Assembly (NCBI RefSeq): GCF_003044935.1 | Contig: NZ_POXP01000004.1 | Location: 62,001 to 126,000 of the forward strand | Direction: 5' to 3' | Source: Neisseria subflava | Lineage (GTDB): Bacteria > Pseudomonadota > Gammaproteobacteria > Burkholderiales > Neisseriaceae | DNA: 64,000 nucleotides | In this document: in pieces, positions 13,345 to 13,680 of the stretch | Position numbering within the stretch: the stretch's first letter is position 1 | How the letters are laid out: each line of letters starts with the position of its first letter | Position numbers and translations under genes: made by a program | Notes under the pieces: generated by a model | The model's input: only the letters and a program-made list of their open reading frames with translations | What the model was told of the DNA's origin: nothing | The model's database searches: none

Positions 13345-13605
13345 CTAGATAAAACGATGCCCCGCACCTTTGAACCGACAGAACCGAAAGCCACCAAAGA
13401 CACCTACACAGCCGAACGTTTTATCTGACTGACCAAGCTGAACAACTTGCGTATTTTAGAGCAAGGTAGCGAGCGGCCATTGACCGATACCGAACGTGCC
13501 ATACTTATAAATCAGCCGTATAAAAAGAAACTGACTTACGCACAAGCCCGTAAGCTACTGGGTTTAGAAGATACCGCCTTTTTCAAAGGCTTGAGTTACG
13601 ACAAA
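13345..13605 (+). pseudogene. cas9: Relic of type II-C cas9 (internal fragment)
   Basis: About 87 codons in one frame match the recognition-lobe region of meningococcal-type Cas9, roughly residues 250-340 from memory of that protein. Recognisable blocks are T-F-E-P-x-[36 protein letters not shown] and [26 protein letters not shown] at 13426-13428 stands where the protein has Trp. Neither the RuvC/HNH nuclease parts nor cas1/cas2 are present. The match ends near 13603, where a CRISPR repeat fragment begins. It is non-functional and a clear deletion remnant. Confidence 0.85.
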
Positions 13606-13680
13606 ATGAGAAAGGGAGCTACAACTATATTCACCCCATTGAATGAAACAATAAAATTGTAGCGTTGTAAAATAAAATAG
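13604..13680 (-). CRISPR. Two-repeat, one-spacer remnant of a type II-C CRISPR array
   Basis: Read on the minus strand, 13625-13604 matches the first 22 bases of the 36-base meningococcal repeat (starts GTTGTAGCTCCC, known from the literature). The remainder is lost at the junction with the cas9 relic. Next, 13655-13626 is a 30-base spacer, the normal spacer length for this system. Then 13679-13656 is a decayed repeat whose last eight bases (GCTACAAT) are intact, including the TACAAT that serves as the -10 box of repeat-embedded promoters. The extended TG of that promoter is changed. Confidence 0.75.

Follow-up and report, generated by a model that had tools for sequence, protein, structure and literature searches.

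How did a 442-bp gap in the genome of Neisseria subflava come to hold a piece of cas9 joined to part of a CRISPR repeat, and could anything there still work? We analyzed a 64,000-nt stretch of DNA (the window; NZ_POXP01000004.1, positions 62,001-126,000), in whose numbering the positions of the relic are given. The gap (13297-13738) separates a gene that presumably encodes a symporter from a gene that we take, following the preliminary description, to be rplQ. That description had proposed a relic of a type II-C CRISPR-Cas9 locus between the symporter gene and the ribosomal operon. Cas9 homology, a repeat match, and synteny with intact-looking loci of relatives all support the proposal. Judged from sequence comparison, these are very probably the remains of a meningococcal-type (type II-C) CRISPR-Cas9 locus, no longer functional, that decayed in steps where it originally stood.

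Contents of the symporter-rplQ gap

The relic is best delimited as 13357-13691. It consists, in order, of a scrap of tracrRNA terminator, a cas9 piece, part of a repeat, a spacer, and a decayed terminal repeat (Table 1). The cas9 piece and the part repeat had been recognized previously, whereas neither the spacer nor the terminal repeat nor the scrap of tracrRNA had been noticed. The first 67 bases of the gap (13297-13363) are identical to those of a relative with an intact-looking locus (G036). They include the hairpin of the symporter-gene terminator, which carries a motif that we take to be the neisserial uptake sequence (DUS).

Table 1. Positions of the relic, its neighbors, and its deletion junctions, with the junctions of a second wreck (G025, locus L045). 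Window positions unless prefixed.
Feature	Position	Strand	Details
Symporter gene (left neighbor)	11872..13296	+	474 aa
Symporter-gene terminator	13301..13330		Perfect 15-bp inverted repeat with two DUS copies
tracrRNA gene scrap (end of terminator stem)	13357..13363	-	7 nt; identity to G036 ends at 13363
Left deletion junction	13363..13364		974 bp missing versus G036; 0 nt homology
cas9 fragment	13364..13605	+	About codons 259-339 of 1082 (G014 numbering); ~80 codons
Right deletion junction (cas9 to last full repeat)	13603..13606		2 nt (AA) shared
Part II-C repeat (crRNA-handle half)	13604..13625	-	Last 22 of 36 nt, read in reverse
Terminal spacer of the old array	13626..13655	-	Exactly 30 nt; diverged copy in G025
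Decayed terminal repeat	13656..13691	-	23/36 letters; same place as terminal repeats of L045-L048
rplQ terminator hairpin (right edge of site)	13697..13726	-	13 pairs
rplQ (right neighbor)	13739..14113	-	Conserved in 46/46 genomes
G025 tracrRNA-cas9 junction	L045:2416-2430		15 bp DUS shared; 839 bp lost in G036's terms
G025 cas9-cas1 junction	L045:2924-2935		12 bp DUS shared; 2,832 bp lost in G036's terms

The cas9 fragment, which presumably belongs to the recognition lobe, is interrupted by an in-frame TGA at 13426-13428. Comparison with Cas9 proteins had been recommended in the preliminary description. The frame that follows the TGA (13429-13662) matched 17 distinct PDB sequences at E <= 0.001, all of them named Cas9 (best E = 3.1e-28); we take these chains to be NmeCas9. 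The cas9 model TIGR01865 matches the piece over model positions 269-360 (3.1e-12), at 45.1 bits against a cut-off of 100 and with one TGA inside the match. These results agree with the meningococcal-type Cas9 segment with a TGA that had been proposed. The same model found no other cas9 match in the whole 2.16-Mb genome, and the 71-codon open reading frame at 13447-13662, searched alone, matched no NCBIfam model at E <= 0.001.

Alignment of the piece with the cas9 loci of related Neisseria, also recommended, gave DNA identities of 80.6-89.7% over ~242 bases to eight relatives; other genomes match all or part of it at 65-79% (among the matches listed). Seven of the eight relatives have one codon more than the piece. 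At positions where the six other rows are all alike (L047 and L052 being omitted as more distant), the window piece differs at 18 places, compared with 0-6 such private changes in each of those rows. Nine are synonymous and nine nonsynonymous, one of the latter being the stop. Without constraint, 23.6% synonymous changes would be expected, so some of the divergence probably arose before the loss, or else reflects transition bias. The end branch of the window piece is 0.13 long, versus 0-0.042 for the six rows of its clade. Long end branches also lead to two intact loci (0.098 for L047 and 0.13 for L052), so that branch length alone does not prove decay. One of the six inner branches of the tree is starred and five are open, and the tree does not settle whether the window and G025 pieces are sisters.

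The array is reduced to one spacer between two damaged repeats. As described previously, a truncated repeat is joined to cas9 at about 13603. Its 22 nt occur exactly in the arrays of relatives and lack specificity for Neisseria: 12 of the 13 stretches found belong to other genera (presumably Pasteurellaceae) and one to N. weixii. Rfam CRISPR-DR34 matches here at 22.2 bits, below the gathering score of 35. A match to 23 of the 36 repeat letters is reached at 2 of 127,930 window positions on both strands, and these are the two repeats of the relic, 66 nt apart. The register is thus correct for 36-nt repeats and 30-nt spacers, and a functional array of this kind is absent. Every letter of the 22-nt crRNA handle is intact, but over so few nucleotides this carries little weight. 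The terminal repeat is decayed throughout, as it is in the G025 wreck; the TACAAT at its end survives in the window and has one letter changed in G025.

Beyond the array, G036 runs on past the point that matches 13363 into the tracrRNA terminator hairpin and the anti-repeat. At the relic, a tracrRNA with an anti-repeat is absent, the end of the terminator stem alone being left. cas1 and cas2 are absent as well, and the gap could not hold them. The relic therefore lacks every component of a functional type II-C system: complete cas9, cas1 with cas2, tracrRNA with anti-repeat, and array. Without a complete Cas9, a tracrRNA body, or II-C adaptation genes, we infer that any crRNA made from the remaining spacer would be unable to act.

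The site in related Neisseria

Our comparison set comprised 46 genomes, one per species. Besides the genome of the window itself, four of them have an rplQ 100% identical (rounded) to that of the window, and the symporter gene, which borders the II-C locus or wreck on its left, is 96.5-98.5% identical in the same four (L045-L048). Three (G036, G037, and G014; L046, L047, and L048) have an intact-looking tracrRNA-cas9-cas1-cas2-array locus between the two genes. This is the outcome of the comparison of rplQ-flanking sites that had been suggested for this locus. Their cas9 genes have 1086, 1081, and 1082 codons, respectively, with cas1 at 304 and cas2 at 108. The tracrRNA gene is on the minus strand, and its anti-repeat keeps 31 of 36 letters. 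Repeats with at most one mismatch number 6 in G036, 20 in G037, and 27 in G014, and are followed by a partly changed terminal repeat beside rplQ.

The terminal repeats of the intact loci (L046:6909-6944, L047:7857-7892, and L048:8288-8323) have kept the 3' 27 letters, with one change in G036, and have lost the handle end. Loss of the handle with retention of the part ending in TACAAT is as expected if only promoter function were selected there.

The fourth genome (G025) has a partial wreck of ~1.36 kb at the same site (L045:2307-3664), less eroded than that of the window. It resembles the window relic in its site, its terminal spacer and repeat, and a cas9 remnant below the family cut-off. Unlike the window relic, it still has a portion of the tracrRNA gene, more of cas9, the end of cas1, one complete repeat, and a cas2 frame, which has 99 codons instead of 108; its cas-gene junctions fall within DUS. 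G025 keeps counterparts of all that the window keeps, and more. The two spacers match in 26 of 30 aligned columns, with three substitutions and one gap.

Among the four genomes closest to the window in rplQ, three look intact at this site and the fourth is wrecked there; by synteny, the symporter-rplQ gap is therefore the native II-C site of this group. The preliminary description had suggested an ancestral CRISPR insertion point, which holds for this group and does not extend to the genus. rplQ places were examined with at most 1.5 kb of flank on each side in 30 of the 46 genomes, and 25 of these 30 show no repeat; by this comparison the site is not general for Neisseria.

Neisseria exchange DNA freely. 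Three other genomes (G020, G009, and G005) carry a II-C system beside another gene. Their cas9 pieces (L049, L050, and L051) match the G036 piece at 93-96% and the G014 piece at 95-98%, while their rplQ genes are only 85-87% like that of the window. Such close cas9 pieces despite distant rplQ and another site suggest horizontal movement of the II-C locus.

Deletion junctions and the course of decay

A single large deletion had been proposed to account for the fusion. Comparison with the intact loci argues against this: two separate segments are missing, so that at least two deletions are needed. The left one removed most of the tracrRNA gene and the start of cas9; the right one spans ~3.9 kb (~3.94 kb) in G036's terms. 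The A-rich homology suggested for the junction amounts to the two shared bases on the right. At the left junction the two parental places have no base in common, whichever of the four relatives stands in for the parent. With 0 and 2 nt shared, both window junctions lie outside DUS, and DUS-mediated deletion is not indicated for either.

The wreck in G025 differs in this respect. With G036 as the parental stand-in, both of its cas-gene junctions fall inside a DUS common to the two parental places. With its array excluded, the G036 locus has 15 direct-repeat pairs that are 12 bp or longer, and DUS is present in 13 of these. Because pairs of that length cover 1.8e-5 of the G036 breakpoint pairs, two G025 junctions are unlikely to fall there by chance.

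The reading of the locus as a wreck is supported by its exact synteny with three intact-looking loci (L046-L048) and one partial wreck, by the homology of its cas9 piece and repeat, by the terminal spacer and repeat that it shares with G025, and by the private changes of the cas9 piece. Comparison with these relatives shows that an ancestral tracrRNA-cas9-cas1-cas2-array locus stood between the symporter gene and rplQ. At least two deletions joined the middle piece of cas9 to the terminal, rplQ-side end of the array, and the cas9 piece has a stop codon and many private changes. The scraps may persist because a short neutral stretch flanked by two terminators is of little cost. The relic could represent a more advanced state of the same decay as in G025, or could have a separate origin. 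Tentatively, and with more doubt than confidence, we suggest that CRISPR-Cas9 loci of naturally transformable Neisseria are pruned through DUS that are scattered in their cas genes and serve as direct repeats, as at both cas-gene deletions of G025. The window relic would then be a later stage, marked by additional deletions at short homologies and by point decay, in genomes that retain I-C as a second system.

Alternative origins, a type I-C system, and implications

Other origins for this arrangement are conceivable. An assembly artefact that misjoined two distant pieces might be considered, as the assembly is a draft of nine contigs. We regard it as extremely improbable: the pieces have the order and orientation of the intact loci, the relic lies 75.3 kb into a 131-kb contig, far from its ends, and neither the relic nor cas9 occurs a second time in the genome. 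The scraps might instead have arrived already broken, by transformation from a relative and together with the rplQ flank. Consistent with this, the five genomes of the group have rplQ at 99.7 or 100% identity, while rpoA and the symporter gene differ; the array end is common to G025; and the abstract of PMC9238386 describes free DNA exchange among Neisseria. Both window junctions differ from those of G025, however, so that G025-like DNA would still have needed further deletions, and neither junction is matched across in the other genomes of the 46-genome set (among the matches listed). We consider such an arrival unlikely.

A third alternative would give the scraps a function. The spacer and 22-nt handle could form a working solitary crRNA, or a minus-strand RNA like scaRNA, that would be used by a Cas9 acquired through transformation or would serve as an antisense RNA. 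For this group, minus-strand transcription of the array is predicted (in the available part of PMC6199352), and the repeats of N. meningitidis and N. lactamica contain promoters (according to the available text of PMC8616872). The handle half and TACAAT survive in the window, and the spacer is common to two species-level genomes. Like the relic, the Neisseria scaRNA is linked to a II-C locus; in the portion of PMC13431127 at hand it has stem-loops SL1-SL4, two of which are likened to sgRNA stem-loops, and identity with the relic is not claimed. Against a working RNA, the genome has neither another cas9 match nor a tracrRNA body, and the terminal repeat is decayed over its promoter half in both wrecks, the TACAAT of G025 being altered too. 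A promoter scan found none on the minus strand at the relic, and likewise none on that strand in the intact G036 array. Nor is there an evident target. An exact scan of viral contigs with the window and G025 spacers found no match, and a distant blastn search gave weak, partial matches at chance level to phages (66 records) and plasmids (8 records), with best E values of 0.6 and 0.4. In the 46 genomes, 24 spacer nucleotides beside the part repeat, with at most three mismatches, were found at their own place only, a limit tight enough to exclude even the G025 copy. The whole relic had no match in plasmids. A functional RNA is thus very unlikely, and we retain the interpretation of an inactive wreck.

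The genome keeps another CRISPR system, a complete-looking type I-C set of seven cas genes (cas3, cas5c, cas8c, cas7, cas4, cas1, and cas2), with 65 repeats by pattern. The cas1 of this set is the sole cas1 match in the genome. Loss of II-C may have been tolerated because I-C remains, as a correlation only. This idea is weakened by G014 and G037, which keep both systems, as do 11 of the 46 genomes. G025 also has the I-C cas8c, and G036 has II-C with no I-C match. Counting matches above curated cut-offs, cas9 occurs in 23 of the 46 genomes and I-C cas8c in 28; the sole cas9 match is below the cut-off only in G000 and G025. Mutual exclusion of I-C and II-C over the genus was considered and is not claimed, as 11 genomes have both, 12 II-C only, 17 I-C only, and 6 neither, without control for descent.

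The I-C array and cas genes, on contig C1, are flanked by two direct 134-nt copies that are 96% identical (L090:4880-5013 and L090:18516-18649), each starting with a DUS inverted repeat. Through these copies the entire system could be lost or transferred in one piece.

The ancestral locus resembled the type II-C loci (NmeCas9 type) of N. meningitidis and N. lactamica in its 36-nt repeat, 30-nt spacers, Cas9 family, minus-strand array, and tracrRNA gene beside cas9. The same repeat is given for N. lactamica 020-06 and N. meningitidis ATCC 13091 (in the available part of PMC6199352). Unlike those loci, the relic keeps ~80 cas9 codons, a 7-nt tracrRNA scrap, one spacer, and a 22-nt and a decayed repeat, and lacks cas1 and cas2. 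Inactivated CRISPR-Cas loci are a kind already known: in the Bacillus cereus group, too, loss of function was judged from missing cas genes (abstract of PMC7242445). Those loci are from other hosts and were treated at the level of gene content, in an abstract without junction analysis.

In Neisseria, as far as passages of PMC9238386 report, CRISPR arrays occur in 45% of the N. meningitidis genomes of that study, each commensal species examined has one or more genomes with arrays, and among 3,676 spacers only 2 are found in identical form in different species. Given that rarity, a diverged terminal spacer common to two genomes usefully marks common descent or exchange of the locus end. In the open-licence PMC literature we found no description of this relic or of DUS junctions in a cas locus; PMC10865793 and PMC7643975 discuss CRISPR in Neisseria, and the available parts of these articles describe no such relic.

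The relic fixes the native II-C site for one Neisseria group. An old spacer is common to two wrecks, eroded to different depths, in species-level genomes, and the deletion junctions are resolved to the base. The DUS junctions of G025 make one route of CRISPR loss directly testable in population genomes. The scraps are almost certainly inactive now, yet they show how a CRISPR-Cas9 locus is dismantled.
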